The position numbers and the translations under genes were made by a program. A stretch of 64,000 nt of DNA from contig JBFLZW010000013.1 of NCBI GenBank assembly GCA_040755755.1, positions 91,448 to 155,447 of the forward strand. Reading direction: 5' to 3'. Positions 21,125 to 37,792 of this stretch are shown piece by piece (position 1 is the first letter of the stretch; every line of letters starts with the position of its first letter). Source of the stretch: a bacterium (lineage in GTDB: Bacteria > SZUA-182 > DTGQ01). The notes under the pieces were generated by a model that saw nothing but the letters and a program-made list of their open reading frames with translations, did no database searches and was not told the DNA's origin.

Positions 21125-23524
21125 CTATGGGTACGACTGCCCTGGATGGTATTTCAGGGTTACCCGCAAATAACAGGGAGCGCCGGTATATCCCCAGTCG
21201 TCATCGGGATGAGCTGAGTTGACATAGTTAAAGTCACTGATGCTCAGGTAAAATTTACCTTTCCAGGCATCTCCAACCCAGAATTTTTGATTTGTCCCTT
21301 CTTTCGGTATCGTAACCTCGAAGGGGCTGACAGCAGTGTCAACATCTCCGGCACTGGCCATAAATCCGTCTGAATCCCGTGGGCGATCGACCAGTATCCT
21401 GTTCTGATTCCAGTCCCGGTAAAGTTTCCAGACGTATTCCACATCAGAACCCGGAGCACCGGTATGGAAATCGATGATGATGTCATAGTACCATTTGGTT
21501 GGAGCAGGCTGGTTCCCATCCTCCAGGGGGGTAAGGTCGATCTGGAACCAGTCCTGATCGCCCTGAAAATCGATATATCCCGCAATCCAGGGGAAAGAGA
21601 TGGTCGCCTGGTCATTGCTGCGCGCAATGGTGATTTTCTTCGAACTCATTTCCTCTGGATGATTTGGATCATTCAGCCGGTTGGGATCATGGAAATCGAG
21701 AATTCTGGTATTGACCCGGTAATCTTTTTTTATCAGAGAAGTATGTTCGAGCTTAATCGAAGCGGCGGATTCATCCGCAAGCTCCATGATTTCGGTATAA
21801 TAGACGACCGCATTCTGATCAATGGCAGGATCGGGCGGCAGAGCCTGCGGAATATCCCGGATATTGGCCTGAATCCGGTAGGGATTCAGCCCATCGCCAT
21901 TATCCCCCTGGTAATCACAGACCCTGAAGAAATAGGAGAGCGGGCTCAAGGTTTCCTGTGCCGGAACAAGAACACTCATCTTGAGCTCACCGGGACCAGG
22001 CTCACCATTATTATCAAAGGCCCTCCTGATCACCTCGTCACGCATAAGGCTGAGGGAGTAGTCCACCGGGGAAGCCTGGGAATTGGTGTCCAGGAATACC
22101 TCAAGCACCCTGGGGCTGCTGGTATCTGTTATCCCCATCCGATACCAGTCCTCGTCTCCCCGAAAGGCGATTTTAGCCGGAGTGAGGCTGTCCGAAACGA
22201 GAATATCGGCGGTATCGATGGTATTGTTTCCGATAGCGGTCTCACCGGTATCGGGATCGATAACCTTCACTGCATCTTCGGCAGGATCGCTCACGTCCAG
22301 GACCTCGATCAGGACGCGGTACGGGGCCGATCGGGTGATGATCTTTCCCTGGGCAGCCTGAACCACAAGGTAATGGTCCCCTGCTCCGGCCTTGATCTGG
22401 TTTTGACAGGTTGTCGATCCGCCGGTATAGCTATGGGAAAGCAGGGCTGCTCCGCCTGCATCCTCCAGGGAGAGCTGATAGGTGAAGCTCAGGCCCTGCC
22501 CCTGATCATCGAAGCTTATTGCCAGAACTTTGCAGCCCGAAGCAATGATATCGTCAAGGCAGATGAGGTACCAGTCCTGATCCCCCAGGTAATCGAGGGA
22601 GCCTTCTGCAGTGAAGGTGCGGGTTGCGGCATCATATTCCATGGAGGAGGCGCTCGCTCTCGCATCGTTGGTATCCTGCTCATCAGCCTCACAGGAGGCC
22701 ACGCAGATATCATAGGGTGAAGCCTGATCGAAGTCATCCCGTCCGTAATCTTCGATCAGCACATAATAATCTCCGGCAGCAAGATACGGGAGAAGATGGC
22801 AGCCATTCCCCTGTCCCTGAGCCGGCAGGGAGGAGAAGGATTCAGCCAGCACGCCCTGACTGTCGTAGAGCTCGAGTGCAAGCTGCACTTGTGTTCCGCC
22901 GGAGAAGGGGGTAAAGTCAACCAGGATGTCATAGACGCCGTCTGTTGGGGCTGTAAACCGGAAGCAGTCGATATCACCGATAGAGCTGATACTGTCACTC
23001 CGGCAGCTCTCCGGGTCATCGACAATGAGCACAAGGGCCTGGGCGAAATTTTCATTTCCTTCCGGACCCCTGGCAAAATCGAGGGTGAGGTAATAGGGAT
23101 TATTCGATGATTCATCATCCATGAGGTCCCGCACGGAAATATAAATATCCTGCGGGGCATGGATAGCGATATTCAGGGAAATCCGGGCTGGCAGATAACT
23201 GCCCTCGGGTGCATGGTCAGCCATGAGCCTCACTCTGCTGCCATCTGCATCCTGCCGGTAAACGGTTACCAGAAGCTCTTCATCGGAGCGATAGGTGTTG
23301 GATGCACAATTAACCTGGAGGATGCTGTTGGCTTCAACCGCCCGGAAGTGATACCAGTCAACCTCTCCGGGCTTCGAGATGGTCCCGGACACCTGCTGCC
23401 GCAAAGCCAGTTCCCGGACCGTGTTTTCCTGTTTCGCGGGAGACTTGCTGCCGCAGGAGCAGAGCCATACTGCCGCTATGGGGATGAAAAGGGATAAGGC
23501 CATTGTTCGATCGGTGCATTTCAT
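21125..23524 (-). CDS. Lipoprotein with about five PPC-like modules (end of surface-machine operon)
   Basis: 799 residues from the ATG at 23524; an in-frame start at 23557 overlaps the preceding gene. A lipoprotein signal ends at AVWLCSCGSK. Modules of about 120-150 residues each carry the pre-peptidase C-terminal (PPC) hallmark: GEVDWYHF, IGDIDCFRF, LGDQDWYLI, RGDEDWYRM and QGDQDWFQI, often followed by a SPYDI or NPYRI strand. PPC domains are beta-sandwiches common on secreted enzymes and surface proteins. No peptidase domain is present here. It lies 16 bases after the VWA gene. I infer an outer-membrane-anchored surface component of the machine or its adhesin complex. Confidence 0.78.
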   Translation of the reverse strand: MKCTDRTMALSLFIPIAAVWLCSCGSKSPAKQENTVRELALRQQVSGTISKPGEVDWYHFRAVEANSILQVNCASNTYRSDEELLVTVYRQDADGSRVRLMADHAPEGSYLPARISLNIAIHAPQDIYISVRDLMDDESSNNPYYLTLDFARGPEGNENFAQALVLIVDDPESCRSDSISSIGDIDCFRFTAPTDGVYDILVDFTPFSGGTQVQLALELYDSQGVLAESFSSLPAQGQGNGCHLLPYLAAGDYYVLIEDYGRDDFDQASPYDICVASCEADEQDTNDARASASSMEYDAATRTFTAEGSLDYLGDQDWYLICLDDIIASGCKVLAISFDDQGQGLSFTYQLSLEDAGGAALLSHSYTGGSTTCQNQIKAGAGDHYLVVQAAQGKIITRSAPYRVLIEVLDVSDPAEDAVKVIDPDTGETAIGNNTIDTADILVSDSLTPAKIAFRGDEDWYRMGITDTSSPRVLEVFLDTNSQASPVDYSLSLMRDEVIRRAFDNNGEPGPGELKMSVLVPAQETLSPLSYFFRVCDYQGDNGDGLNPYRIQANIRDIPQALPPDPAIDQNAVVYYTEIMELADESAASIKLEHTSLIKKDYRVNTRILDFHDPNRLNDPNHPEEMSSKKITIARSNDQATISFPWIAGYIDFQGDQDWFQIDLTPLEDGNQPAPTKWYYDIIIDFHTGAPGSDVEYVWKLYRDWNQNRILVDRPRDSDGFMASAGDVDTAVSPFEVTIPKEGTNQKFWVGDAWKGKFYLSISDFNYVNSAHPDDDWGYTGAPCYLRVTLKYHPGQSYP

Positions 23525-23540
23525 GATGAAGCCCCCCTTG

Positions 23541-25160
23541 TTACTGAAGCAGGACAAAATCCTGTGGGGTAAGGATAATATGTTTATTGGGTTCGTTGAT
23601 ATTTACGACCACCTCGGCCATCCGGAAGATCGGCGTGATGGATGGATTATCTTCCGGCACCTCGGCAATGTAGAAGCGGATAAGGTTATCTCCCGGACGC
23701 AAGGCAACGCCGTTCTCCGTGGTACACCCCAGGGTGTCCATGAGGTCGATATTCGAAATCGTGAAATGGTACTGCCGTACATAGGAGGGCAGGGATGATC
23801 CCTGCGACAGGGGCACTAACCCCTGGTCCCTGACATCGTACTGATAGCTGTATCGCTCCCGTATCCTGGGATCATTCGAGGTGACATTGGTATGCCGCTG
23901 GACCTCCTGGTAATCCGCTACGCCGTCAAAATCGCAATCAGCGGTGGATTGGTCTTCGAGAGGATTTGTGCCCATGGGAAATTCAAGGCCATCTGGGATG
24001 CCATCTGCATCCGAATCCGCAACATGCCGGTTGGTGCCCTTGACATATTCCTCGCAGTCCGTCAACCCATCGTTATCGGAATCCGGCCAGATGCCATCGG
24101 GCATCTGATCGCAGGGGCTGTCCGGCAGCCGGGGATTGAGCTCATGACCGGGGGAGCTTGATTTGACCTCGAAGAAATCGCTGAGCCCGTCGGCGTCAGT
24201 GTCCCGGCTGCCCGGATCGGTGCCGCGAGCCGCTTCCTCCTCATCGGTGAGGCCGTCGGCGTCGCTGTCGGCATACACCAGCTCTAGCCCCGGCCTGACA
24301 TTATAGTTGAAGGCAACCAGGTATTTGATCTTGTACTCGACCGTCAGGCGCATATCGACAATATTGATAAAATCGATAGCTTCAGCGTTTTCGAACAGAC
24401 GAAACTGCCCCTCCCCCCGGTCAGCCATCCCTTCCAGGGTCGTTTCCGCCATCTGCCGGGCCAGTTGTCCATCTGCCGTCGGCGGAAAATTGCCAAGCAG
24501 GAGAAAGGTATGGAAATTAAAGGACCCGACTCCCATCTGGGCAGCCATCTCGCGCATTTCATTGACCCGGTTCCAGATATCCGTATCGGACTGCCTGCCG
24601 CCCTGGACGTTGGACATGCCGTCACTCAGAAAGACGACAATGTACTTGGTGCGGATAAGGTTCTGTTCCTCCTGTGCCTTCACCCGGTTGATGTCCCGCT
24701 CGATATCGGCATATATGGCCTCCAGGGTTCCCAGATAATCGGTCATGGTATCGTTGGCCACCCGGTTCAGGACCCGGTTGATCTCGTCAGGATCTTTGGT
24801 AAACCCTCCCCGGCCATCGGTGGTCCTTGTCCGCTCGAAGACATCGTTATTCCAGAGCATGATCTCAAAGGAGGTGTTCTCGTTGCTGTTATAGGTATCG
24901 ACAAAGGTCCGCACCGCCTCGATCCGCAGAAAGTGCGGATCAGACCCCACCAGTTGGCCGTTGACCGTATCCCCCATGCTCAAGGAGCAGTCAATGGCAA
25001 ACAGGACCTTGACCGGAAAGCGGATCTCATCAGGGCTTTCGGTAACAAACATTCCCTCAAGCGTTACCTTGGGCAGGGACTGGATCCTCTCAAGATCAGG
25101 CCCGCCCCCGCACCCCAGGGCAACAGAAAGGATGAGGCAGACAAAGAGGGAAAATACCAT
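23541..25160 (-). CDS. VWA-domain lipoprotein with thrombospondin type-3 repeats, CglB-like adhesin candidate
   Basis: 539 residues from ATG 25160, which gives the signal MVFSLFVCLILSVALGCGGG with lipobox. The open frame extends to 25490, but that part is antisense-frame shadow and repeat DNA. Residues about 45-235 form a von Willebrand A domain with a MIDAS: VLFAIDCSLSMGD (DxSxS), the TMTDYLG threonine, and VVFLSDGMSN. Next come Ca-binding type-3 repeats (DSDADGLTDEEE, DTDADGLSDFFE, DSDNDGLTDCEE, DSDADGIPDGLE), then a beta-rich tail. Myxococcus CglB is an outer-membrane VWA lipoprotein that serves as the gliding adhesin. The same architecture beside an ExbB/ExbD/TPR operon suggests an equivalent role here, by inference. 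Confidence 0.82.
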   Translation of the reverse strand: MVFSLFVCLILSVALGCGGGPDLERIQSLPKVTLEGMFVTESPDEIRFPVKVLFAIDCSLSMGDTVNGQLVGSDPHFLRIEAVRTFVDTYNSNENTSFEIMLWNNDVFERTRTTDGRGGFTKDPDEINRVLNRVANDTMTDYLGTLEAIYADIERDINRVKAQEEQNLIRTKYIVVFLSDGMSNVQGGRQSDTDIWNRVNEMREMAAQMGVGSFNFHTFLLLGNFPPTADGQLARQMAETTLEGMADRGEGQFRLFENAEAIDFINIVDMRLTVEYKIKYLVAFNYNVRPGLELVYADSDADGLTDEEEAARGTDPGSRDTDADGLSDFFEVKSSSPGHELNPRLPDSPCDQMPDGIWPDSDNDGLTDCEEYVKGTNRHVADSDADGIPDGLEFPMGTNPLEDQSTADCDFDGVADYQEVQRHTNVTSNDPRIRERYSYQYDVRDQGLVPLSQGSSLPSYVRQYHFTISNIDLMDTLGCTTENGVALRPGDNLIRFYIAEVPEDNPSITPIFRMAEVVVNINEPNKHIILTPQDFVLLQ

Positions 25161-25263
25161 GCTTCCCGGTAACTCCTGAGTCCCCTCTGTGTCTCTGTGT
25201 CTCTGTGGTTTCCTTTCCCTGCGATCTTTGCTGATCCTTCCATCCGGTTGTTTGCCATTACCG

Positions 25264-26112
25264 TTACCGTACATCGCAGGCATCTCCTTTCCCATCCCGG
25301 TCCCTGTCCGTCTGGTCAGGATTGGCATGTCTGGGGCAGTTATCACAGGCATCGCCGATGCCGTCCTCATCAAAATCCGTGTTCTCGGAGGTACGGCAGT
25401 TGGGACAAAGATCTCTGTCGGGTCCATCACCCTCCAAAAAGCCGTCATTGTCCAGGTCCTCATCGCAGACATCGCCGGCCGTATCCCCAATCATGAAAAA
25501 ATCGCTGTTTTCCTGCTCCGGGTTATAGACCCTGCTGCAATTGTCAACCGTATCCGGAACCCCGTCATCGTCATCATCCTCATCGCAGATGTCCCCGCGC
25601 TCATCATGGTCATAATCCGCCTGGAGAGGATTACCAATAGCGGGGCAATTATCACTCTGGTTCACGATGCCGTCTCCATCGATATCTCCATCACAGGCAT
25701 CCCCAATCCCGTCCCCGTCGGTATCGAGCTGATCGTTATTGGCCATACCAGGGCAATTATCGCAGGCATCCCCGTGGTCGTCGCCATCGGCGTTCCGGCT
25801 CTGGTCGTTCGGGGTGTAGGGGCAATTGTCCCTGGTATCGACCACCCCGTCGGCATCGTAATCCTCCTGGAGCGAGAAAAGCGGGCCGAGGTCGTAATTG
25901 ACCACGATCGGGCCGCCGCCTCCCCCGCCTCCTCCGGCACCGCCGGATGGAGGTGCGCCGCACAGATCGTCGGGGCATTCGTCAAACCAGTCATTGGGAT
26001 TAAAATCCTGGGCCTGAACCGGAATACTCCTCCCGGCAGCCATGACAAGGGCAGTGAAGAGAACCACGAAGAGCATACGGGTGAATGGATGGGAAACAGG
26101 GTGCTTGTACAT
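25264..26112 (-). CDS. Secreted calcium-binding thrombospondin type-3 repeat protein
   Basis: 282 residues from ATG 26112 with GTGAGGTGAT upstream. The signal peptide ends at IPVQAQDF. A short N-terminal part with DECPDDLCGAPP and a run of eight glycines leads to an almost continuous array of type-3 repeats of the form DxDxDGxxDxxDNCP (for example DADGVVDTRDNCP, DTDGDGIGDACD, DIDGDGIVNQSDNCP). These bind Ca2+ and form stiff rods. The protein has no other domain, so it may be a Ca-dependent spacer or partner of the VWA lipoprotein. The 103-base gap to the VWA gene contains a CTCTGTGTCTCTGTG repeat. Confidence 0.8.
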   Translation of the reverse strand: MYKHPVSHPFTRMLFVVLFTALVMAAGRSIPVQAQDFNPNDWFDECPDDLCGAPPSGGAGGGGGGGGPIVVNYDLGPLFSLQEDYDADGVVDTRDNCPYTPNDQSRNADGDDHGDACDNCPGMANNDQLDTDGDGIGDACDGDIDGDGIVNQSDNCPAIGNPLQADYDHDERGDICDEDDDDDGVPDTVDNCSRVYNPEQENSDFFMIGDTAGDVCDEDLDNDGFLEGDGPDRDLCPNCRTSENTDFDEDGIGDACDNCPRHANPDQTDRDRDGKGDACDVR

Positions 26113-26122
26113 ACCTATCACC

Positions 26123-27517
26123 TCACACTTGCGCGGGATGGAAGAGATAAATCGTTCGTTCCGTCCCGGAGTAGGAACAAATGACGGGCCTGTTCCGCCC
26201 GTCAAACCATAAGCTGTTATAGAGGCCGATATCTCCGCTCGAGGCCACGGTCTCCCTCTTCCATGCGCCTTCCTGAAGTTGAGCGAACCTCAGGTTGTTC
26301 GCGGCATATCCGCTATGGCTTTTCAGCTCATAGTAGGCAATGGCGGCAGATCCTGCGGCATCGTAGGCCAGACTGCAATAATCCCCGCACCAGGAGGTAT
26401 CATCCACCATCTGAATCCGCCAGGATGAAGCCTCTTCTTCCGCATACCGCAGGCAATGATGGTCGGCCCTCCCGTCGCCATACTCCTCGACGTAATAGGC
26501 TACGCCCAGGAATCCTCCAGCATCACACCGGGCGCCGCTTATCGAGCCAACCACGCAGCCTTCCTCGATCCATTCCTTTTCCCATATCCCCTGCTGTCTG
26601 CGGGCCACCCGAAGGCCTCTGGTATTGCCGGGAAGCTCGGCATAGTAAAAAATGACCGGATTGTCCCCGCTATCCAGGGTAATTACACAATGGTAGCCCA
26701 CACTGTTTTGCACATTGCTGCCATCATCATAGTGATTCCCCTCGACCGTCTCCTCAAGAGCCGCTGCAGAAAGCGCCGAGCGGTCCTTTTTCACGTAGCA
26801 AAGATCGGGGTAGCGGTAATTCATGGCATCGCAGCCTTCATAAAAGAACTGATAGGCGAGGTGGATGGCCCCTTCCGAATCAACCGCCACCGAGACCTCG
26901 GTTCCCGCCAGCCCATCCTGGAACACGGGATTTCGCTCGACAATCCCGACAGCCCCGGTATATTCTCCCCATCCGCCCGCAGCCTTAAGGCTCAGCATGG
27001 CATCGGACTGCTGCTCCCTGCCGCATTCCCGGACCGTTCCTCCCCGGTAGGAGATCACCGGCAGGTTATCCTGGCCAAGGGCCAGGGAGAGGGCCGCACA
27101 GTTATCGATGCTCGTGACAGGTTCCGGTTCAGGGCTGGAGGAAAGGGTTCGGAGAGTGCCGGTCGGGTTGTCTAGGACCAGGTACTGAATCTGATAAGCG
27201 GCAGCGGTATTATCATCGTCCTGAAAATACGCAAGGTGCACGGTGCCTTGTGCATCCCTTGCCGCCTTGACCCGCGGACTGAGCATCCCTCCAGCCTCGA
27301 TCCGGGCGAGCGGGACATTTTCCCACCGGCTGGCCACGACATTCCGGGATTGGCTGCCGGTATTGTTACTGCCTCCCCCGCCTCCTCCACATCCGAGGAT
27401 ATTTGTATAGATAATCAGAAGGAGCGCTAACAGCGATATCACCAGTTCCAGGTACCCGCATCTCCTACCCCCGAAGGTAAGCATAGTAAGATTCCCGTGC
27501 CTGTGGATGGATTGCAT
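26123..27517 (-). CDS. Lipoprotein with propeller-like repeats (operon member)
   Basis: 464 residues from ATG 27517, chosen for GAGGAGACCAAAG just upstream; it overlaps the preceding TPR gene by 53 bases. A later ATG at 27484 also retains the signal. The signal ends at YTNILGC, a lipobox, then a Gly run. The body repeats strands such as VHLAYFQDDD, LPVISYRGG, IHLAYQFFYEG, PVIFYYAE, LGVAYYVEEYG and AAIAYYELKSHS about every 50-60 residues, the pattern of a BNR/sialidase-like beta-propeller. No catalytic motif recognised. Sits between the giant TPR gene and the type-3-repeat gene, so it is probably an outer-membrane surface component. Confidence 0.7.
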   Translation of the reverse strand: MQSIHRHGNLTMLTFGGRRCGYLELVISLLALLLIIYTNILGCGGGGGGSNNTGSQSRNVVASRWENVPLARIEAGGMLSPRVKAARDAQGTVHLAYFQDDDNTAAAYQIQYLVLDNPTGTLRTLSSSPEPEPVTSIDNCAALSLALGQDNLPVISYRGGTVRECGREQQSDAMLSLKAAGGWGEYTGAVGIVERNPVFQDGLAGTEVSVAVDSEGAIHLAYQFFYEGCDAMNYRYPDLCYVKKDRSALSAAALEETVEGNHYDDGSNVQNSVGYHCVITLDSGDNPVIFYYAELPGNTRGLRVARRQQGIWEKEWIEEGCVVGSISGARCDAGGFLGVAYYVEEYGDGRADHHCLRYAEEEASSWRIQMVDDTSWCGDYCSLAYDAAGSAAIAYYELKSHSGYAANNLRFAQLQEGAWKRETVASSGDIGLYNSLWFDGRNRPVICSYSGTERTIYLFHPAQV

Positions 27518-30500
27518 CTTTGGTCTCCTCAACCCTTGCCTGATTCGGAAGGGCCTGGTAAAGGTCTCTGGCCTTGTCGATATGGCCATAATACTGATAA
27601 AGTCCGGCAAGATTGACCCGTGCGCCGATATGGTGAGCATCGAGAGCCAGGGCTTTGGTAAAAGCATCTTTTGCCAGACTGTCCTCGCCAATGGCGAGAT
27701 AGGCTACACCAAGGGCATTGTATATCCTGGCCTGCACTGCCTTATCAAAAGCTTTAGCCTCGCCGAGGGCTTTTTGGGCTATGAGGATCGAGAGCCTGAC
27801 ATCTCCCTTTTCCCGGTAGGTCTCGGCAAGAGTCAAAAGAGCGGTGGGATCGCCCGGATCCTGCATCAGCTTTTGATGGATCCCCCGTAAGGTCTCATCC
27901 TTTGACCATTGGGAGGTTATTTCAACCAGGGGCCGTGCCTTTGAAAAACCGGCGTTCCTTGATTGCCGTCCTGCTGAATCGAGGAAGCAGGGTGCCAGCT
28001 TCGGATCGCACACTTCCCAGGAATGTGCTTTCTCGACACAGGCCCGGCGATATTCATCCGCCTTATTGCCATATCCTTGAGCCTTCTGGTTCAAAAGCTC
28101 GCGGTACTGCTCTTTCTCTTCAGGGGATAAATCAGGCAGGGGAGATTCCTGGAGAAAGCGTTCGAATTCCCGGTAGATCTCATACGAACGGTAGCAGGCG
28201 GAAAGAGCCCATTCAGGAGACTGATATTGGATGACGGCGGCGTAGCCCTTCTCCAGGTTCTCGAGGAGCTTTGCCTTGGCAGCCACCAGGCTGGTATCGA
28301 TACTCCCGGAGAGCTGAAGGCCCATATAGTCCTGAAAAGTCTTTTCAAGAAGGTTATATTCCATTGCGGCCATCCGGGTGCGCACATCCCTGTCCTTCCC
28401 GGCCAGATCGGGCTTGCAGGCTTTTCTGGCTTGTGCGGCCAGGGCACGTGCCGTATCGAATTCACCTGCCTGGGCATGGAGATCGGCCATGCGGGCATCG
28501 GCTTTCAGTTGCCCCAGGGGGGATGCCTGGTCCCGGCAGGTCTGGAGCACCTTCAGTGCCGCGTCTCCGCTCCCTTTTTTCTCCGCATTGTCGGCCATGG
28601 CCATGAAGATTTCCTCCCTGGCACCGGCGCTCTTTCCTCCCCGGTCGAGAACCATCTGATAGTCCTTATTGGCAAGATCGTATTGCCCAAGGCTCTCCCG
28701 GATCCGGGCTGCCTGATACAGGAAATCGGTGCTGCTGCTTTCTTTCGGAAGCCGCACGCTGAACTCTTCGAGATATTGAGCCAGGAGCCTGAACTGGCTG
28801 ATCCGCAGCGAGGAATCGATCAGAAGGCTTAAGGTGTCTTTAATTTTCGCTGACGAGGGATAGTGGACGATCAATTCAGAGCCTGCATTAAAGAGGGTCT
28901 CAAGATCTCCCTTCTCCTTGCTGGGAAGCAGCAGGGCATACAGGGCATATTCTCCCATCGAGGCACCTTTCTGCTGATCGGCTATCCGGGAAAGACCTCC
29001 CTTGCCCTTGTCCCAGTCATTGACCGCGGACACGGTGAGAGAATTGATGATCTTGGATTCCGCGGCCTGTACGATCCCGCTGACCTCGGTCTTCAATTCC
29101 TCATCCTGGATATTCCGATCTTTGAGCACCTTTTGGCCGTATTTGACCAGACCTGCATAATCCTCTTTCAGGTTATAGGCATCGAGAATAAGATGGACCG
29201 CAGCCCTGGCCTCTTCCCCCGTGGGGCAGCGATCGATAAACCGGGAAAATTCGGCAATGGCTTGGTCATATTTTCCCTGATCATAGGTGATCCAGGCCAC
29301 GTTAAAGAGCACATTCGAAACCCGGTGCGATCCGGGAAAATCACTGGCATAGACCTGGCCGCAGGCCGTGAGCCCTCCTCTGGCTGAGGCAATCTCATAA
29401 TAGGTGAGGCTGTCTTTCTGTTTCAGAGCGCGATAATACGAGAGCACCGCGCTGTAGAGGCCCTCTTCCCGCTGCCGGTTTTTTTGTGGTATAGCCAGGG
29501 CGCATTTTTCGTATTGCTTCCCGGCCTCAAGGTATCTTTGGGCTGAAAACAGCGCCTCGGCGTAATTCGCTTCCATCTCACGATACACAGGGCTTGTGTC
29601 AAAAAATTCAAGGTAAGCCTTGTACGAGTCCGCGGCCCGGATAAAATCCTCTTTCGATTTTTTCTCTCTGGCTTTCTGGTGGAGGTGAGTAATAATGTCT
29701 CTGGCATAAAGTTCGAAGTCAGCCAGATTTTTCTTTTTCTCTTCTTCAGAGATATGGACCGAGTATTTCTGTGCCTTGAGTGCCCCGACCATAATGGCCA
29801 CATCCTGATCCGCATCCTCGAAGCGCTCCAGGGACTGGACACATTCGAAGATTCTGCGGCTGTATTCCAGAAGCTTTTCGACATCATAGCGCAAGGTCGC
29901 CAGTTTGCGGTAAATGGCCGCGGCATGAGACCACTTGTTCTTGATCAGGTAGCGATAGGCCAGTTTTTCCAGAGCCAGAGTATAGACGGGCCGTGACCAG
30001 GCATATTTTTCAAAGTAGGCTATCGCATCCTGCGGGCTGCTCTCTTTGTAACACTCGCAATAGCAATAGGCCATATCGGTCAGGGCCTCGGTTCTCACAT
30101 CCACCCTTTTGTAGGTGTCGATATCCAGCTCGCTGGTATCGCTGAGGCTGGTGACCGACTCCTCGAAGAGCTTGATGGCCTTCTGGAAGTCCACCCTGTT
30201 GATGTAACACCAGCCCAGCTTATACCGGGCAAGAGCTGCGGCTGAGCTTTGAGGATAGGTTAACACCTCCTCGTAGTGCCTTTGGGCCATATCGAGGTCC
30301 GACAGGTTGAAAAAATGGTCCCCCAGCAGCAGATAGGCTTCCGCTGCATACGGGCTGTCCTTGTATTTGCTGATAATGGCCCGGTACTGGCCGACCATGT
30401 CCTCGATCTGACCAAGCTCCCGGTATTCATGAGCCAGAAAGAAATGCACCTTGTCAAGCTCCCCGAAATCGGGGAAGTTGTTGATGATGCGGTGATAGAT

Positions 30501-30911
30501 TTCGATAGCCTGATTCTTCAGGGTGTTCGATTCAAAATGCTCCAGCGATTTGACCGATGAGGAGCCTTTCGGGCTCTCAGCCTTGCGGAGAAAATAGATA
30601 ATGCGGGATTTTTCGATGTACAGCTCAGCCAGGCGAAGGTAGAGTTCGGGAAGATAGGGTTTGTTCCTCGACCGGTCAATCAGGACCCTGGTATTTTGTA
30701 TGGCCAGGTCACATTTCTTTTTATCTTCCCTGAGCTTGAGGATAAATTTCTTTTCTTCCCCGCAGGTGTCCTTTTTTTCGTAGGCGTAGCTCTCCGGCTT
30801 TTCAGCCTGGCCGCTGCCATAAGCCGGTGCAGCCAGAAAAACAAGCCCCAGGATACTAATAATAGCTTTGCAGGTGAGATGTTTTGTTGTCATTGGAAAA
30901 TATCCCATCAT
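27465..30911 (-). CDS. Giant periplasmic TPR protein (Glt-like scaffold)
   Basis: About 1148 residues. The start at 30911 makes an ATGA overlap with the upstream TPR gene; an alternative is 30893. A signal peptide ends at AAPAYGSGQ. The remainder is helical TPR repeats from end to end, e.g. YLRLAELYIEKSR, AEAYLLLGDHFFNLSDLDMA, ALARYKLGWCYINRVDFQKA, and near the C-terminus TALLTLAETYREKGDVRLSI and RVNLAGLYQYYGHIDKA. Large exported TPR proteins are the hallmark of Myxococcus Glt complexes (for example AgmK/GltI and GltE). I infer a periplasmic scaffold linking the inner-membrane motor to the outer membrane. Confidence 0.82.
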   Translation of the reverse strand: MMGYFPMTTKHLTCKAIISILGLVFLAAPAYGSGQAEKPESYAYEKKDTCGEEKKFILKLREDKKKCDLAIQNTRVLIDRSRNKPYLPELYLRLAELYIEKSRIIYFLRKAESPKGSSSVKSLEHFESNTLKNQAIEIYHRIINNFPDFGELDKVHFFLAHEYRELGQIEDMVGQYRAIISKYKDSPYAAEAYLLLGDHFFNLSDLDMAQRHYEEVLTYPQSSAAALARYKLGWCYINRVDFQKAIKLFEESVTSLSDTSELDIDTYKRVDVRTEALTDMAYCYCECYKESSPQDAIAYFEKYAWSRPVYTLALEKLAYRYLIKNKWSHAAAIYRKLATLRYDVEKLLEYSRRIFECVQSLERFEDADQDVAIMVGALKAQKYSVHISEEEKKKNLADFELYARDIITHLHQKAREKKSKEDFIRAADSYKAYLEFFDTSPVYREMEANYAEALFSAQRYLEAGKQYEKCALAIPQKNRQREEGLYSAVLSYYRALKQKDSLTYYEIASARGGLTACGQVYASDFPGSHRVSNVLFNVAWITYDQGKYDQAIAEFSRFIDRCPTGEEARAAVHLILDAYNLKEDYAGLVKYGQKVLKDRNIQDEELKTEVSGIVQAAESKIINSLTVSAVNDWDKGKGGLSRIADQQKGASMGEYALYALLLPSKEKGDLETLFNAGSELIVHYPSSAKIKDTLSLLIDSSLRISQFRLLAQYLEEFSVRLPKESSSTDFLYQAARIRESLGQYDLANKDYQMVLDRGGKSAGAREEIFMAMADNAEKKGSGDAALKVLQTCRDQASPLGQLKADARMADLHAQAGEFDTARALAAQARKACKPDLAGKDRDVRTRMAAMEYNLLEKTFQDYMGLQLSGSIDTSLVAAKAKLLENLEKGYAAVIQYQSPEWALSACYRSYEIYREFERFLQESPLPDLSPEEKEQYRELLNQKAQGYGNKADEYRRACVEKAHSWEVCDPKLAPCFLDSAGRQSRNAGFSKARPLVEITSQWSKDETLRGIHQKLMQDPGDPTALLTLAETYREKGDVRLSILIAQKALGEAKAFDKAVQARIYNALGVAYLAIGEDSLAKDAFTKALALDAHHIGARVNLAGLYQYYGHIDKARDLYQALPNQARVEETKDAIHPQARESYYAYLRG

Positions 30912-32422
30912 TTGAAGAAGATATCCCACTCTTCGAGGCAGTTGCATTTGTTGGGCAAAGTTACCGTGTAATCATCCAGCTCATCGTTCCAGAATTCTCC
31001 CTGGAAGGGATAGATGGCTATCCTTCCTGTTGGCTTTTGGGCCGAAGCAGCATCCTCCCGGTAGTGATACTGATATACCCGCTGGTACATATCGAGCCCG
31101 ATCTCATATTCCATGAGGTTGGCCTCTTCCTCGAACTTCAGGATTTCGTTGGCCATTTTCTCATACTCTTCCTTGATCTGGGTTCTCAATACTCTGGTCA
31201 TTTTCTCGATTTCAAGGGTATACAGCTTATCCAGGAACCCGCACAGAGGCTTATCGGGAAAGAGGGCGATCTTTTCCTTTTCCTGCTCCAGGAGCTTCAG
31301 GAATCTCCAGGTCTGGTTGATCTTTTTTTTGCTCAGAAGGAGCAGGAGCAATCCGGGGTCATCGGCTGCCTCTCCCCTGGCGTAAATCGTTTCCAGGGAA
31401 TGGCCGTAGTGAGCCTTAAATTCCCTGACTACAGCCAGGGCCTTCTGATAATGGCACACCTCTTTGTAGATGAGAGATTTCAGGATATAGTGTTCAGGGG
31501 TAAAATAATCCCGGAAGCCGGGGGCTTCAAAGGCATATAAAAGCCCCATTGCCTTTTCCGAATTTCCGAGGCGGTAGTGGTTCCAGGCCCGCTCGAAGAG
31601 CGTCTGGGCCTGTTCGAGAACCGGTTTCGGATTCTTCTGATAGATGCGCTCAGCCTCAGCATGCTCTCCCTTTTCATAGAGCAGGCGGGCCAGGGTGGTG
31701 GCCGCCTCGCTTTTCAGATCATCCGCCGTACCGGGAGATTCCAGAATATCCTGAGCTATGGCCATAGCCTCATCGATCTTATCCTGATAAATCCTCAGCA
31801 TGGCTTTTTGAAAAAGATAGCGGTAATAGTAATAGCTCTTTGGAGTAATCCGGTGAAAGTGATTATCCCCCCACTGGAAGAATCCACGCTCCCAGTCGAA
31901 CATCCCCTGATAATAATTGATAAAATCAGCCATCTCCTCTTCCAGCGCACCATATTCCTGATCACAGACAACCGTGTTGATAATAAGCTCGCGGTCAAAG
32001 GGGATGGTGCGGGTTATTTCCTCGAAGAGCTCAAGGCAGTAGGAAACGATCCTGGGATTCGGTTTTCTGACGATAAGATTCACCAGCTCATCGACTGCCG
32101 CATGGGACAGGCCGCACTTCTTCAGGCAGATGCCGAAGAAGAACTGCGCCCATTCATAGTCAACCACGTCCGGTGAGTTCATACTCAGGAAATGGAACAG
32201 CCGGGGAGCTGCAGCAGCATAATTCTTTTTCTCAAAAAGCGCATATCCCCGGGCAAAAGAATTTGGATCCTTCATTGGAATGGCGGCATCAGCATCCTGC
32301 TGGACAACAGGGGGCTTTTGATCCTTTTCACCTTCCCCAGGGTTCTCTGATGCCAAAGCCCTGCCGGAGGAGATTACCATGATCCACAACAATATCAGTG
32401 CATATCCGATTATACGCTTCAT
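30908..32422 (-). CDS. Secreted TPR protein (GltE/AglT-like)
   Basis: 504 residues with an N-terminal signal peptide (ISSGRALASEN) and helical repeats from residue about 50, e.g. ARGYALFEKKNYAAAAPRLF, LKSEAATTLARLLYEKGEHA and FERAWNHYRLGNSEKA. There is no lipobox. The C-terminal 60 residues (YQRVYQYHYRED onward) are not TPR. Start and stop overlap both neighbours by 4 bases (ATGA), indicating translational coupling. By position after a barrel gene and before a larger TPR gene it resembles the TPR pair in Glt-type clusters; equivalence to a particular Glt protein is not established. Confidence 0.8.
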   Translation of the reverse strand: MKRIIGYALILLWIMVISSGRALASENPGEGEKDQKPPVVQQDADAAIPMKDPNSFARGYALFEKKNYAAAAPRLFHFLSMNSPDVVDYEWAQFFFGICLKKCGLSHAAVDELVNLIVRKPNPRIVSYCLELFEEITRTIPFDRELIINTVVCDQEYGALEEEMADFINYYQGMFDWERGFFQWGDNHFHRITPKSYYYYRYLFQKAMLRIYQDKIDEAMAIAQDILESPGTADDLKSEAATTLARLLYEKGEHAEAERIYQKNPKPVLEQAQTLFERAWNHYRLGNSEKAMGLLYAFEAPGFRDYFTPEHYILKSLIYKEVCHYQKALAVVREFKAHYGHSLETIYARGEAADDPGLLLLLLSKKKINQTWRFLKLLEQEKEKIALFPDKPLCGFLDKLYTLEIEKMTRVLRTQIKEEYEKMANEILKFEEEANLMEYEIGLDMYQRVYQYHYREDAASAQKPTGRIAIYPFQGEFWNDELDDYTVTLPNKCNCLEEWDIFFK

Positions 32423-33129
32423 GGTTTTCCATCTTCCCGCAGATAGTTCTGTAAGACCTTGACGGTTTCGTCCCTCTCCGTTTTTCTCGGAGACAGGTTA
32501 AACCGGAATCCCAGGCCAAGACCAAAGCCAAGCCGGTTTTCCCTTTTATCTTCCCTGAAATTGACCAGATCACGGATTTCGAGATTCAGGCACAGGTGCT
32601 TGCGGATAAAGTATTTCATGCCGATTCCAAAGCTCACCGAAAGGACGTTTTCTATCACTGCCGCGGGCTTGTTTTCATAACTGACCATCCCTCCGCCGAG
32701 GAAAAGGTAGCCCTCGTGGTTCAGTATCCGGCGATTCCAGACCGCATCCTTCCCATAGAAGGGCTTCACCACCAGGTGGGTATGAACCATATACTTGGTT
32801 TCCCTGAATTCCGTGGGTGCAACCCCGAATTTCTTCTCAAGGTCTTTGCGCAGCTCCTTTTCCCGGTTGAGCATCAGGTATCCCCTGGCTACCTCCCAGC
32901 CCAGATGTTCATTGATGTGGTAGGTATAATGGAGCCCCAGAGGATAAAGATGATAGAAATCATCATCGGGAAAATAGCCACAGCTTGCGCCGATTTCATG
33001 GCAGTAGTGGAATACCCTGTTCTGAATGGCATACACCTGCTCCTTATCTGCCGGATCCTCTCCAAACCCCTCCCGTGGACCAGGGAAAAGCAGCAGCAGG
33101 AGGAATAATAAAACGATCCATCGTTTCAT
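32419..33129 (-). CDS. Outer-membrane beta-barrel protein (OMP_myx_plus/TIGR04565-like)
   Basis: 236 residues with AAGGAGATGAGTGC before the ATG and a signal peptide ending near EGFGED. The opening AIQNRVFHYCHEIGASCGYF followed by YPLGLHYTYHINEHLGWEVA matches the start of the Myxococcus-type outer-membrane barrel family found in gliding and related clusters. Later strands include GYLFLGGGMVSYENK, LSVSFGIGMKYFI and GFGLGLGFRFNL, ending in a periplasmic tail. Likely the outer-membrane pore or anchor of the complex. Confidence 0.78.
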   Translation of the reverse strand: MKRWIVLLFLLLLLFPGPREGFGEDPADKEQVYAIQNRVFHYCHEIGASCGYFPDDDFYHLYPLGLHYTYHINEHLGWEVARGYLMLNREKELRKDLEKKFGVAPTEFRETKYMVHTHLVVKPFYGKDAVWNRRILNHEGYLFLGGGMVSYENKPAAVIENVLSVSFGIGMKYFIRKHLCLNLEIRDLVNFREDKRENRLGFGLGLGFRFNLSPRKTERDETVKVLQNYLREDGKP

Positions 33130-33141
33130 GCACTCATCTCC

Positions 33142-35673
33142 TTAAAAACCTACGATATCGAAAATAAAGGGATAGGAAACAACCACTTCTGCACCCTGGG
33201 GTTGGGGAAACTGCCAGGATTTGATTTTCTCCTTCATACATTCATGGATCGAATCCGATTGAACGGAAGAAAAGCTGGTCCGGATCTCTCCCACTCTGCC
33301 GGAGAGCAGGATTTTCCATTCAAAGACAATCTTTCCCATAAGCGAGGGATTCGAGATCAGGGCGGTTTCGTAGCAATTGGTGATCTCGGCAAGGTGCTGG
33401 TCAATCACTTTCTTGACCGCCTCGCGGCTCATGCCTCCTCCCTGGACGCTCACCTTCTTGCTCAGCTCTGCCTTGACCATGGCCATGACCTGCTTCTGCC
33501 CGGTCTGGCCTGTCTCCAGAGCGCCGACCTGATCCGGCTCGTCCTGCCCTGCTGCCTCCGCATTCCCTGCCAGGCCGATTCCCCCGCCCTTGCCTCTTCC
33601 ATAGGCGGCCACACTCCCCTTTCCGGCAACACCGGCACTGCGTAAAACCTGGGCAGATCCCCGGGTAGTGACTACGCCGCCGGAAGGCACTTCGATCCCC
33701 GAAGTATCCAGCTTCCCGACGATGCCGCCAACCTTGAAATTCCCTTCACTGCTTGTGGGGGAAGAGACAATGTCGAGGTTCGTCACTGCGGCCAGCACCT
33801 GTTTGGCTCCTGACTGAGGTCCCGGATCAACTCCATCTTTGGTGCCGAGCACGCTGAGGAGCCCTGCCTGCTTGATGTTGCGGTTTACAATATTCCCCCC
33901 GGCTTTGCCGCTGCCTCCCCCCGCATCGGGTGACAGGCCATTGGCAGGCCCGGCCCCGGATGATTCCCTCTGAAGCGAGCTGACCACGTGAGGACGGCCA
34001 GTCCGGGAAGAAGGGTTTTTAGCAACGGAGCGGGTGGAGGCTTCTTTTGCCGTGCGCTTCACCTCAAGAGAAGCGGTTTTCTCCTGCGGCACCGGTTTTT
34101 GGGTTTCAAGCGGCTGGGTCTTTTTCGGCTGCCGGCTCTTTTGGGGTTCCGGTCTGGCTGCCTTTTGGGGAACGCTCGTATTGCTCATCTCGGTCAATTG
34201 CCGGGTATCCACCTGAGCAAAGCGCGGCTTTTCCGGAACGGGCGAGTGAGATTGCTCCGGCAGCGAAAATACCACTCCTCCCAAAATGAGTAAAAGTCCA
34301 TGAACGAGCAGGGATTGAAGGAGATTTTTCGGGAAGCGCCGCTCTTTGTCCCGATGAATCGCAACCTGCGGACTTTCTCCCGGTTCAGTGGCCCGGACGA
34401 TATATTCGTAGCAGCCGTCGCTGAGATAGAGGGTGCCCTGCAGGGGGAGCTTCGAGCGGTAGATCCGCTCCATGTGCGGATACGAGCAGAGGTTTTCAGG
34501 CCTGCACAGGCTGGTGAGCTCTTTGACAGTATCTTCATACATGAGCCTGCCCTGAAACTGATCGGTGAAGAAGAAGGAGAAGCTTTCGACATGCTTGTTT
34601 TCCGCATCTTCCGCCGGATTTTCAGCCAGACAAAACCGGTCAGACCCGGCATAATATCCGGGAAGGTCATACCTTTCACCCCGCGAGAGAAGACGCACAT
34701 CGATTACTTCATCCTGCCGAAGCTTGATAACTTCAAGGAGAAGCTCACCTCCCGCCCGATTGACCGATCCCTGCCCGGCCTCTGTCAGTATCTGCCGGAG
34801 AGAAAAGCCAGCTTCGCTGTCGTCACCGTCATCTTCGTCTTCGTCCTCATCCTCATCCTCATCCTTATCCTCATCAAAGCGATCATCTGCCAGGCTCGTA
34901 TCGGGAGCCAAAACCGGCGCGGAGATCGATGCAGGAAGGGGAGGCTCTGGCTGCTCAGGTACGCCCAGAGGATCGGGCTGTGTGCACAGCAGTTCGGCTG
35001 TTACGCTCAGCGCCTCGGCCACAGTGCTCAGGGGATCGGGCGGATCACTCGGCGACGGATCAGGCAGGGCAGGGGCTGATTGCCCGGCAGTCTCATGAGT
35101 AACTTCGGGGGCAGGTTGGGAGGCCGACCCTTCAACCCTCTCCTTAACCTTATCCCTGTCCTCACACTCCTCCTGGGGGAGGGTTTCAAGCGTGGCATTC
35201 AGAGATGAAATGGCTTCATATATCCCCGCTACCGCTATCTCTGCTGCCTCAAGGTCCTGGGACCTGCTGACAATACTCTTTACTTTTGCCTTGAGCGTAT
35301 ATGGCCCTATGGTCACAAAATCGAAGGGGCCGAGCATGCATATGGCTATTGGCTTGCCATTTACCCGGACTCCCCTGCCGGAGCTTTCATCCGAGACGAT
35401 AAGCTGGTCGCCCTTCACATGAACAATGGCGTGAATATCGGCGATCGATTGGTCATTGAGGACAAGGTCCGCATCGCTTCTGCGGCCTATGGCAACCTTG
35501 TCTTGCTGAAAGCAATCCCAGCCGAGATATTTTTCCTTGTGGAAAATAAAAAATTGAATAACCGCGCCATCCGCTGCGCCGGTCTCAGCCTCTCCCTTTT
35601 CCAAAACAGAGAGAGGGAGAGAAGGATTTTCAGGTACTGAAACAGCAGTCATGGTCTTCATGCCGAGCTTCAC
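33142..35673 (-). CDS. FHA domain - transmembrane - AgmX/TonB-like protein (GltG/GltJ-like coupler)
   Basis: 843 residues from a GTG that overlaps the previous stop by 4 bases (ATG alternatives 35661 and 35652). Residues about 38-135 form a forkhead-associated domain (VAIGRRSDADLVLNDQ, IHAIVHV, SSGRGVRVNG) that should bind phosphothreonine in the cytoplasm. A Pro-rich linker and an acidic DEDEDEDED run follow (near 270-285). A single membrane helix LLVHGLLLILGGVVFSL lies near 450-475. Next is a Pro/Lys/Gln-rich periplasmic linker and a C-terminal AgmX/PglI-type, TonB-related domain (VKKVIDQHLAEITNCYE to the end). It would transmit proton-channel work across the periplasm, as GltG/GltJ are thought to. 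Confidence 0.85.
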   Translation of the reverse strand: MKLGMKTMTAVSVPENPSLPLSVLEKGEAETGAADGAVIQFFIFHKEKYLGWDCFQQDKVAIGRRSDADLVLNDQSIADIHAIVHVKGDQLIVSDESSGRGVRVNGKPIAICMLGPFDFVTIGPYTLKAKVKSIVSRSQDLEAAEIAVAGIYEAISSLNATLETLPQEECEDRDKVKERVEGSASQPAPEVTHETAGQSAPALPDPSPSDPPDPLSTVAEALSVTAELLCTQPDPLGVPEQPEPPLPASISAPVLAPDTSLADDRFDEDKDEDEDEDEDEDDGDDSEAGFSLRQILTEAGQGSVNRAGGELLLEVIKLRQDEVIDVRLLSRGERYDLPGYYAGSDRFCLAENPAEDAENKHVESFSFFFTDQFQGRLMYEDTVKELTSLCRPENLCSYPHMERIYRSKLPLQGTLYLSDGCYEYIVRATEPGESPQVAIHRDKERRFPKNLLQSLLVHGLLLILGGVVFSLPEQSHSPVPEKPRFAQVDTRQLTEMSNTSVPQKAARPEPQKSRQPKKTQPLETQKPVPQEKTASLEVKRTAKEASTRSVAKNPSSRTGRPHVVSSLQRESSGAGPANGLSPDAGGGSGKAGGNIVNRNIKQAGLLSVLGTKDGVDPGPQSGAKQVLAAVTNLDIVSSPTSSEGNFKVGGIVGKLDTSGIEVPSGGVVTTRGSAQVLRSAGVAGKGSVAAYGRGKGGGIGLAGNAEAAGQDEPDQVGALETGQTGQKQVMAMVKAELSKKVSVQGGGMSREAVKKVIDQHLAEITNCYETALISNPSLMGKIVFEWKILLSGRVGEIRTSFSSVQSDSIHECMKEKIKSWQFPQPQGAEVVVSYPFIFDIVGF

Positions 35674-36023
35674 CCACTCTTTTTAGTCATGTCACGGTCC
35701 TGGAGAGGAAAATCTTCCAGTATTTCCTTCCGGAACTCCTTTCGGACCGAGAGCATGCTCTTGATTTCATTCTTCTTGCGCTGCAACAGATACACCGCCC
35801 CGGATTTTATGGATTGTCCAAGAATGTAGGAATTTCCAAAGTCGATCCGGCTGAGCAGCTTTTTTTCACCCTCCTGGGGCTGAGCCTGGGGCTGGCTGCT
35901 GCCCTGGGCCAGGGCACTCCCTGGAGTGAACCTGAAAGCGGGGGACAGGAAGCTCGCCGGCGGCATCTGGAGAATATACCAGAGGATGAGCACACCGATG
36001 AAATATTTCAGAGAGTTACTCAC
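35670..36023 (-). CDS. Small single-pass exported protein, conserved with the motor genes
   Basis: 117 residues from GTG 36023 with TAGGAGATCTTCACC upstream. One N-terminal hydrophobic segment (YFIGVLILWYILQM), a Gln/Pro linker, then a compact C-terminal stretch RIDFGNSYILGQSIKSGAVY and LLQRKKNEIKSMLSVRKEFR. I recognise no domain. The second half looks like a conserved docking segment, and similar small proteins occupy this position in TolQ/TolR-containing clusters of deltaproteobacteria, from memory. It may correspond to GltF, unproven. Confidence 0.68.
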   Translation of the reverse strand: MSNSLKYFIGVLILWYILQMPPASFLSPAFRFTPGSALAQGSSQPQAQPQEGEKKLLSRIDFGNSYILGQSIKSGAVYLLQRKKNEIKSMLSVRKEFRKEILEDFPLQDRDMTKKSG

Positions 36024-36035
36024 GGTGAAGATCTC

Positions 36036-36524
36036 CTATTTATTCAGAACGGCAAACTGAAAATTCGGGTATCCAGCCACAGCCGCTGTCTTGATCACCT
36101 GATTTATGGTCTTGAAGGGAACCCGCTTGTCACAGAGAAAGATGATATGCTCAGGGGCTTCTGTATCCGGCTTCGATTTATCCAGGATTTCCCGGTGTGA
36201 GGTGAGCTGACGATAAAGGCCCGACTCTTTCAGCTTTTCCGGATCAAGCCCGATAATTTCACCATTCCGGAGCGTGGCAACGATTTTATCTTCGAGCCGC
36301 AGGTTTGACTGTGAGAGAACCAGTTTGATGTTATCCTGGTAATCGCCCTGGGCTGCTGACTCCGGCAGTCTGAGATCTTTCTCAAGCTGAATGACTTGCG
36401 GCTTATTCGAGTAAGAGCTGAGCAGAAAGATGAGAATGATGGTAAACATATCCATCATCGAGGTTATCTGTAATTTCGGGATCCCGGAATCCCGATTCTG
36501 TCTTCTTCGTTTACCAAGGGCCAT
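36036..36524 (-). CDS. ExbD/TolR-family protein 2 (AglS/AglQ-like)
   Basis: 162 residues with GGAGGGAG before the ATG. A short cytoplasmic N-terminus leads to the membrane helix LQITSMMDMFTIILIFLLSS, where the Asp in SMMDMFTII is the proton-carrying residue of ExbD/TolR/MotB-like stators. A periplasmic domain follows, ending in the TolR-like IKTAAVAGYPNFQFAVLNK. It is the second of two ExbD genes following one ExbB gene, the arrangement of Myxococcus aglRQS. Confidence 0.88.
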   Translation of the reverse strand: MALGKRRRQNRDSGIPKLQITSMMDMFTIILIFLLSSYSNKPQVIQLEKDLRLPESAAQGDYQDNIKLVLSQSNLRLEDKIVATLRNGEIIGLDPEKLKESGLYRQLTSHREILDKSKPDTEAPEHIIFLCDKRVPFKTINQVIKTAAVAGYPNFQFAVLNK

Positions 36525-36544
36525 TGACCATCTCCCTCCTTATC

Positions 36545-37057
36545 CTAGCTTACTTTTCCTGAGAGCACTACCCGGGGAAAGAGGGCCTTATCCTCACAAA
36601 AGCGGGCTGCATCCATAGCCTGGATGATCGTATCGTACAGAATGCTTTCCTCCGGGATTATTATGAGCGTATCACTCGACGGGTAACTTCCCTTGAGCTT
36701 TTGCAGGTGCGTAACTACCTGATTCAGTGGATACGTGCTCCTTTGCCCTTTCGCCAGGTGAGCGTCCCACCTGCTTAACTCTTCACTGCCGAGTGAATCG
36801 GAGATAGCCGAAAGGTGTATCTCATCTCCTTTGATCTCCATGACGGCCGTTACCCTGATCGCTTTTTCCAGTTCCTGGCGGCTGGCTTTGCCGGTCTCAG
36901 CAAGAACAGGCACCGAAGTGTCTATGGCTTTCAACTGATAGAAGGCCGCGGACAGGAGGAGGAAAGGAACGAGCACCAGGAAGGTATTCATGATAGGAAC
37001 GAGGTCGATTTCCACCTCTTCTACAGTCTCTGATCTCTGCTTTCCCAATCCAGACAT
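36545..37057 (-). CDS. ExbD/TolR-family protein 1 (AglQ/AglS-like)
   Basis: 170 residues from ATG 37057, chosen for GAGGAGCACGCC upstream; an in-frame ATG at 37093 is weaker. The membrane helix is VEIDLVPIMNTFLVLVPFLLL. The usual membrane-facing Asp is in EIDLVPIMN, and the position after PIM is Asn rather than the Asp found in the second copy (SMMDMF), so the two paralogues differ at the probable proton site. The periplasmic domain ends with LIIIPEESILYDTIIQAMDA. The two ExbD proteins would form a heterodimeric stator with the ExbB product. Confidence 0.86.
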   Translation of the reverse strand: MSGLGKQRSETVEEVEIDLVPIMNTFLVLVPFLLLSAAFYQLKAIDTSVPVLAETGKASRQELEKAIRVTAVMEIKGDEIHLSAISDSLGSEELSRWDAHLAKGQRSTYPLNQVVTHLQKLKGSYPSSDTLIIIPEESILYDTIIQAMDAARFCEDKALFPRVVLSGKVS

Positions 37058-37144
37058 GGCGTGCTCCTCTGAATTCAGGTGGTGATCAGTCACCGTGACG
37101 ATATCGATCCATGTGGATGATCGATATCAGTCCGGTTCATGGGT

Positions 37145-37792
37145 TCAGTTACAACTCGTGGATACAGCTTCCTTGTCCTTCTTGAGGGAACACAGGACAT
37201 TAAAGAGACGGTAGGCTTTTTCCTCAAATTGATCGACGAGGTAGTTTCCCCGGTTATTGAGGATGTAATAGGCTATGAGACAGGGTATGGCCACAATCAG
37301 ACCAAAAGCGGTGGTCAGCATGGCAATGGAAATACCGTTGGCTAATATCTCCTGTTTCATGGCTGCACTGGCGGTGCTGACACCCTGAAAGGCTATGATG
37401 AGACCCTGGATAGTTCCAAGAAGTCCAAGGAGCGTCGAGATATTGGCAAACAGGGCCAGATAGTTAATTCTTGTTTTAATACGGGGGATCTCCCGCATGA
37501 TATTCTCTTCCAAAGCCCGCTCGATCTCTTTATCCTTTTTATCCGATTTCAGAAGACCGGCCTTTAATATCCGGCCAAGAGGATGCTTTTCAATCCGGCT
37601 ACACTCCTCGATCGCACCGTGGTAATTCATCTTTTCGAGCAGGAAAATTATTTTCTGGAGGACGCTGTCGTGGTTTAATTTCAATTGGATGAACAGAAAA
37701 CTGGCGCGTTCGCAAAAGAGGGCCAAAGCCAGGACCGATACTGCGAGGATGAAATACATAAACATGCCGCCTTTTTGTAACAAATCAAACAT
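37145..37792 (-). CDS. MotA/TolQ/ExbB-family proton channel (AglR-like)
   Basis: 215 residues with CAGGGGAGGATAAAT before the ATG. Three membrane segments: FMYFILAVSVLALALFCERA near the start, ARINYLALFANISTLLGLLGTIQGLI-type helix near 130-155, and ISIAMLTTAFGLIVAIPCLIAYY near 175-195. The GLLGTIQGLI and LTTAFGLIVAIP motifs are those of TolQ/ExbB/MotA. With the two ExbD proteins it forms the inner-membrane, proton-motive-force-driven motor. It is the first clearly recognised gene of the operon. Confidence 0.92.
   Translation of the reverse strand: MFDLLQKGGMFMYFILAVSVLALALFCERASFLFIQLKLNHDSVLQKIIFLLEKMNYHGAIEECSRIEKHPLGRILKAGLLKSDKKDKEIERALEENIMREIPRIKTRINYLALFANISTLLGLLGTIQGLIIAFQGVSTASAAMKQEILANGISIAMLTTAFGLIVAIPCLIAYYILNNRGNYLVDQFEEKAYRLFNVLCSLKKDKEAVSTSCN

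Follow-up and report, generated by a model that had tools for sequence, protein, structure and literature searches.

In 2011, Luciano et al. (PMC3169522) left open the role of the Glt-type core complex in nongliding bacteria. The same question is raised by a bacterial locus at which the genes of such a core are linked one by one with those of adhesins from the Myxococcus cohesion family. The locus lies in a 64,000-nucleotide stretch of DNA, here called the window, from contig JBFLZW010000013.1 (assembly GCA_040755755.1, positions 91,448 to 155,447; GTDB lineage Bacteria; SZUA-182; DTGQ01), where 12 open reading frames (ORFs), all on the minus strand, run uninterrupted from 37792 to 21125 (16.7 kb). 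In order of transcription they encode an AglR-type motor subunit, two TolR-like proteins (ExbD1 and ExbD2), a GltF-like protein, a GltG-like coupler, an outer-membrane barrel, GltC- and GltD-like TPR proteins, and four surface-type proteins carrying a beta-propeller, thrombospondin type-3 repeats (TSP3), a von Willebrand factor A (VWA) domain with TSP3, and PPC-like domains. Based on sequence comparisons, we think it probable that the operon is a self-contained cassette that has spread horizontally and encodes an adhesion machine spanning the envelope and powered by protons. Its most likely output would be calcium-dependent cohesion of cells with one another or with surfaces, and not Myxococcus-type gliding.

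Conservation and spread of the cassette

A preliminary description, made from the sequence alone, had proposed that these 12 minus-strand genes form an operon combining an Agl/Glt-like, proton-driven, envelope-spanning machine with a VWA lipoprotein. All of the ORFs are present, the families of most were recovered by profile searches, and family matches together with conserved gene order bear out the proposed composition. The gene-order comparison that the description had called for was carried out by scanning 84,980 genomes with a profile of the GltC-orthologue alignment, which returned 80 loci; as TPR sequences give poor patterns, the GltD-like protein recovered no relatives when used as the query. 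All 12 genes occur in identical order at 13 other loci, 11 of them by automatic annotation and 2 (L153 and L228) after tblastn of masked ORFs, and the locus is not a one-off. Because this order recurs at 13 loci with GltC protein identities of roughly 35 to 55%, a chance origin of the observation is excluded. Complete loci were found in Desulfobacterota and related metagenome-assembled genomes (MAGs; L150, L152, L153, L155, L157, L160, L162, L164, L165, L191, and L228), in a MAG labelled Nitrospirae (L154), and in the cultured gammaproteobacterium Reinekea marinisedimentorum DSM 15388 (L171). The remaining close relatives end at contig ends and contradict nothing. The AglR gene leads the cassette in 13/13 complete relatives, and the PPC gene closes it. 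Apart from one close pair, no two loci share related genes upstream of AglR, and the genes downstream of PPC are likewise unrelated in the three relatives read further; since the flanks are unrelated we take the 12 genes to be the unit.

The cassette is found in few of the genomes sampled. Within the phylum of the Desulfobacterota carriers, 5 of 395 sampled genomes have a match at cassette-level similarity, and 3 more hold a more distant form; the gammaproteobacterial sample has 1 in 369, Reinekea itself; and a domain-wide sample has a strong match in 3 of 386 genomes, the host included. Eight other genomes of the host phylum were examined, and none of them has the GltC-like protein. A tree of GltC plus GltD groups the window with the MAG labelled Nitrospirae at a support of 0.88, in the midst of Desulfobacterota loci. 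This patchy occurrence, combined with the fixed gene order, points to horizontal transfer of the cassette.

Surface proteins and their kinship with Mts cohesion proteins

The tenth gene (25264..26112) encodes an exported TSP3 protein (TSP_3, 131 bits) that is homologous to the NCBIfam model of MtsC over residues 19 to 281 (219 bits; cut-off, 350) and is without the MYXO-CTERM tail. The eleventh (23541..25160) encodes a predicted surface lipoprotein that shares the VWA+TSP3 layout of MtsD (136 bits; cut-off, 800), and TSP3_bac was also matched among the operon proteins in the family search. Pfam gives no VWA match in the window protein. The VWA assignment is confirmed by comparison and modeling, because VWA_2 is matched in 6 of 13 relatives, the metal ion-dependent adhesion site (MIDAS) motif DCSLS is intact in the window protein and is kept, with few exceptions, in the aligned cassette relatives, and residues 46 to 273 of the predicted model fit the VWF A1 and integrin I domains (Z of about 17). 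The lipoprotein matches the MtsD and CglD models only, in a library for which the presence of a CglB model was not established, and the CglD model is matched weakly by all members of the VWA group. In sequence, the cassette adhesins appear to be closer to MtsC and MtsD, which are Myxococcus cell-cell cohesion proteins, than to CglB.

Myxobacterial genomes place Mts-type and Glt-type genes side by side. In most Myxococcota the cassette GltC has a single orthologue (E values of 1e-45 to 1e-96), found in addition to weaker GltC matches of Glt/Nfs type (about 1e-20). The order in family f39 is TSP3-AglR-ExbD-ExbD-GltF-GltG-barrel(s)-GltC-GltD, whereas in Myxococcaceae GltF-GltG-barrel-GltC-GltD occurs without a motor and adjoins divergent VWA, TSP3, and VWA genes. 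In f60 (G097), motor and core are present with divergent VWA, PPC, and propeller genes, and in a genome of the Desulfobacterota phylum (L273) TSP3-VWA-PPC lies ahead of the motor. In Citreicoccus inhibens M34 (G036), the orthologous GltF-GltG-GltC-GltD set adjoins genes for a TSP3 protein and a VWA protein that qualify as true MtsC (606 bits versus a cut-off of 350) and MtsD (1328 versus 800), and several named records of Myxococcus, Pyxidicoccus, and Corallococcus show this TSP3/VWA linkage as well. Homologues of the window TSP3 and VWA+TSP3 proteins thus adjoin an orthologous GltF-GltG-barrel-GltC-GltD set in myxobacteria. The window proteins are co-oriented with a motor of their own, whereas the clusters of Myxococcaceae have divergent adhesins and no adjacent motor. 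The NCBIfam names of MtsC (NF047638) and MtsD (NF047639) read "cell-cell cohesion," and a 2025 article (PMC11980579) relates a MYXO-CTERM protein, written MstC, to cell-cell cohesion, social motility, and development, citing the 2007 study of the mts locus (J Bacteriol 189:7937). One record labelled Comamonas sp. KCTC 72670 (BNCN01000002.1; L196, the same as G111 C2) is of a Myxococcus-type genus with a Myxococcaceae-type cluster, and its organism is probably mislabelled.

The propeller and PPC genes bear on another possible output. The beta-propeller lipoprotein (26123..27484; lipobox LGC) has no Pfam match at all; its fold is confirmed by relatives and by an AlphaFold model (pLDDT, 82), for which the nearest PDB folds are the Photorhabdus PLL/PHL lectins and bacterial sialidases (TM of about 0.5). 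The last gene (21125..23524) encodes a large lipoprotein with PPC-like domains (PPC E value of 7e-4, under the cut-off). Both could bind glycan in a surface-polymer or envelope-assembly machine resembling the Nfs complex of the Myxococcus spore coat, with the VWA proteins serving as structural parts. Nfs is likewise a paralogous Glt-type trans-envelope assembly with a TolQR-like motor, and the resemblance of the propeller to lectin and sialidase folds speaks for such a role. Nfs differs from the window operon in relying on AglRQS, a motor encoded at another locus, and in transporting a glycan (PMC3858216). Against such a role, the operon contains no polysaccharide export or synthesis genes, and kinship with MtsC and MtsD points to cohesion. 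We regard a polymer machine as unlikely.

An asymmetric motor and its putative docking helix

The motor genes encode an AglR/ExbB/TolQ-type subunit of 215 amino acids (37145..37792; MotA_ExbB, 103 bits), ExbD1 (36545..37057, within an ORF that opens at 37093; ExbD, 44 bits), and ExbD2 (36036..36524; ExbD, 43 bits). At the position of the proton-carrying Asp, every alignable cassette-type ExbD1 has Asn (VP[IV]MN; VPIMN in the window), and every alignable cassette-type ExbD2 has Asp ([TS]MMDMFTI; TSMMDMFTI in the window). Such Asp/Asn (D/N) pairs occur at 28 distinct loci among the AglR-linked TolR pairs examined and D/D pairs at 18; in Myxococcus genomes, both the AglRQS-type pair and that of the second motor belong to the D/D set. 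In Myxococcus, the engineered substitution D28N in aglQ abolishes activity (PMC3858216), and it has been stated to be unknown whether AglQ and AglS dimerize with themselves or with each other (PMC9389320). A pair that always has one Asp-less partner argues for a heterodimer and provides a naturally occurring parallel to the aglQ D28N mutant. In an AglR tree of 212 columns with many weak nodes, the AglRQS clade has a support of 0.99 and does not include the window, which lies in a distinct clade of cassette sequences.

The GltG-like coupler (33142..35673) consists of a cytoplasmic FHA domain (E value of 9e-9), one transmembrane helix with Ser-x3-His, a Pro-rich linker, and an AgmX/PglI C-terminal domain (myxo_SS_tail, 103 bits, above the cut-off). 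A His in the single transmembrane helix, usually as Ser-x3-His, is present at 21/22 motor-linked loci versus 2/30 motor-less loci, one of the latter being an artefact with the His outside the helix; the sequences behind this count and the D/N count are related and therefore do not represent independent events. A Ser/His helix of this kind is the means by which TonB and TolA engage their motors (PMC12204202). The VWA-type TonB/TolA-like force transducers share an SHLS-type docking motif with the coupler (PMC12204202), but they carry the VWA domain on the inner-membrane transducer itself, whereas the window has a GltG-like transducer and carries its VWA domain on another protein, predicted to be a surface lipoprotein.

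Homology of the motor subunits to ExbB and ExbD and the TonB-like topology of the coupler would also suit a TonB/ExbBD or Tol-Pal energy system of the usual kind, adjoined by unrelated surface genes. The motor subunit scores under the cut-offs of TolQ (78 of 221 bits) and ExbB (47 of 206), and no TonB, TolA, TolB, or Pal was matched among the operon proteins at NCBIfam family cut-offs. Best matches to TonB/ExbBD iron uptake with no Glt similarity, the outcome that the preliminary description had named as speaking against its own claim, did not appear; the coupler, GltC, and barrel match Glt families, and the 12-gene order is conserved together with the adhesins. Such an energy system is highly improbable here.

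D/N motors also occur in the Myxococcota genomes G097 C29 (L140), G083 C21 (L143), and G062 C8 (L127), away from Mts-type clusters, and the Asn/Asp asymmetry therefore extends beyond the cassette. A 2.5-Mb non-myxobacterial genome (G022 C120; L040) has a D/N motor, a short GltG-like protein, and a GltD-sized TPR protein, with other genes following; Mts adhesins were not found within the 20 kb read there.

Comparison with Agl/Glt systems

The remaining core genes match Glt families at varying depth. The outer-membrane beta-barrel (32419..33129) exceeds the cut-off of OMP_myx_plus (TIGR04565; 86 bits versus 60). The GltC-like exported TPR protein (30908..32422), which bears the C-terminal signature FxGE[FY]WNDEL in an alignment of 19 orthologues, reaches 110 of 450 bits with the NCBIfam GltC model. 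The small exported GltF-like protein (35670..36023) scores 22 bits with the NCBIfam CglF model, far under the cut-off of 90; its position and its motif, RIDFxNxxIxGQxxKSGAVYLxxRK, are conserved. The large exported GltD-like protein of 1160 amino acids (27465..30947) matches TPR families and is named by its size and its match to the protein of GltD size in a Glt/Nfs-type cluster from a myxobacterium. An NCBIfam search of the operon proteins found no GltE match, and the operon has no third TPR gene.

The nearest described arrangement is the core complex of Luciano et al. (Group B: aglRQS, gltC, D, E, and G; PMC3169522), with which the operon shares one TolQ-like and two TolR-like subunits together with GltG-, GltC-, and GltD-like genes. 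That core is likewise patchy and horizontally spread, with function unknown in most carriers. The available part of that article already describes motor and Glt core in single clusters in Gammaproteobacteria, Geobacter, and Fibrobacter, with unknown function, and mentions one extra gene and no adhesin module. The suggestion that single-operon packaging is new therefore does not hold for motor plus core but stands for the adhesin half, within the text available. Compared with the Luciano core, the window operon is without a detected gltE and adds a GltF-like gene, four surface-type genes (propeller, TSP3, VWA, and PPC), and the D/N TolR pair.

Whether the machine glides can be judged against AglRQS-Glt-CglB of Myxococcus, in which adhesins moved directionally along the envelope propel the cell. 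The window has a Glt-type coupler, TPR proteins, barrel, and a motor of one TolQ-like and two TolR-like subunits; its GltG shows the FHA, transmembrane, and AgmX/PglI architecture, although it scores 116 bits against an equivalog cut-off of 650; and its VWA lipoprotein could in principle be CglB-like, with the weak CglD matches noted above. However, AglRQS has Asp in both TolR-like subunits, whereas the window has Asn in ExbD1, and the window motor falls outside the AglRQS clade. GltE, GltI, and GltJ were not found in the operon. No homologue of MglA or of the MglB/Roadblock family, which control polarity in the gliding machine, was found in the host genome (G000, 97.6% complete), while both were found in a Myxococcus control, and MglA was not found in R. 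marinisedimentorum. The best adhesin matches are the cohesion proteins MtsC and MtsD, and core genes are not enough for motility according to Luciano et al. (PMC3169522). The preliminary claim of gliding with a CglB-type adhesin is thus not borne out, and we consider a gliding machine improbable. By sequence, the machine would work like an Agl/Glt machine, yet it is not classed in the AglRQS gliding machine, because two defining features of that motor and MglA/MglB control are absent. We prefer cohesion over gliding because of the Mts-like adhesins, the lack of MglA and MglB in the host and of MglA in Reinekea, and the insufficiency of the core genes for motility.

Powered adhesion could proceed as follows. 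Protons would turn an ExbD1-ExbD2 heterodimer within an AglR pentamer (AglR5:ExbD1-ExbD2), ExbD2 being the sole proton carrier, and the Ser/His helix of GltG would dock on this motor while its FHA domain senses or recruits. The C-terminal domain of GltG would then pass force to the GltC/GltD/barrel assembly, which may expose, pull, or reposition the VWA/TSP3 lipoproteins outside the cell, where they could bind neighbouring cells or the substrate with calcium.

Several observations weigh against this reading. Absence of MglA rules out MglA-controlled gliding only, and the cohesion role in Myxococcus is no proof that the linked Glt-like genes act with MtsC and MtsD. Both window adhesins score under the equivalog cut-offs of their Mts models. 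Within f39, the motor close to the cluster is D/D in one genome (G059), and one GltG (L168) is without the transmembrane His. The Asn of ExbD1 may be a neutral lineage trait.

A further-reaching proposal, which we put forward tentatively on the same comparisons, is that the cassette represents an undescribed, horizontally spread class of adhesion machine. Its axle would be an obligate heterodimer with a single proton site (ExbD1-Asn/ExbD2-Asp), making it an asymmetric relative of 5:2 motors that docks on a TonB-like GltG helix and drives Mts-type adhesins; Myxococcaceae would have kept the adhesins and Glt-like parts and lost the linked motor and the docking His. Three features appear to be new: the invariant set of 12 genes, its link with the Mts cohesion proteins, and a D/N motor accompanied by the matching docking motif. 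With R. marinisedimentorum DSM 15388 as a cultured carrier, the function of the core is directly testable.

Operon layout, host genome, and neighbouring genes

Starts were refined by using signal sequences and lipoboxes, which placed them at 37057 (ExbD1), 27484 (propeller), 26112 (TSP3), 25160 (VWA), and 23524 (PPC). GltF/GltG, barrel/GltC, GltC/GltD, and GltD/propeller overlap, the last by about 20 bases, and the other intergenic gaps are all about 100 bases or less; from this spacing we infer co-transcription of the 12 genes. Scans for promoters and terminators gave results near shuffled expectation and were uninformative, and GC content shows no useful difference between the operon (53%) and its flanks (51 to 52%).

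Contamination of the contig was considered and rejected, as copies of the radical-SAM gene (1544-4228) occur in the host's genus at 77% identity and in its family at 64%. No empty insertion site came to light: synteny with two relatives, whose contigs are short, stops near 39.46 kb of the window. A check for plasmid carriage gave no match. The host genome holds a second Glt-core-like cluster (G000 C78; L041:5557-17505) with a 1765-amino-acid TPR protein, AglR, an ExbD with Asn, an ExbD with Asp, and a GltG-like TonB-family protein with a Ser-x3-His transmembrane helix; Mts-type adhesins were not found near it. A lone AglR-GltG pair without ExbD genes (G000 C41, about 26173-29142; L287) is close to that of the window (E values of 3e-73 and 6e-37) and may have arisen by partial duplication of the cassette.

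A four-gene operon for a group 3-like NiFe hydrogenase follows immediately downstream of the PPC gene (window positions 16370-20410; large, small, FAD/NAD, and FeS subunits). Elsewhere in the window, a cohesin-domain protein is encoded at 7073-8176 (E value of 1e-9) and a protein carrying a beta-propeller and PKD repeats at 45907-49182.

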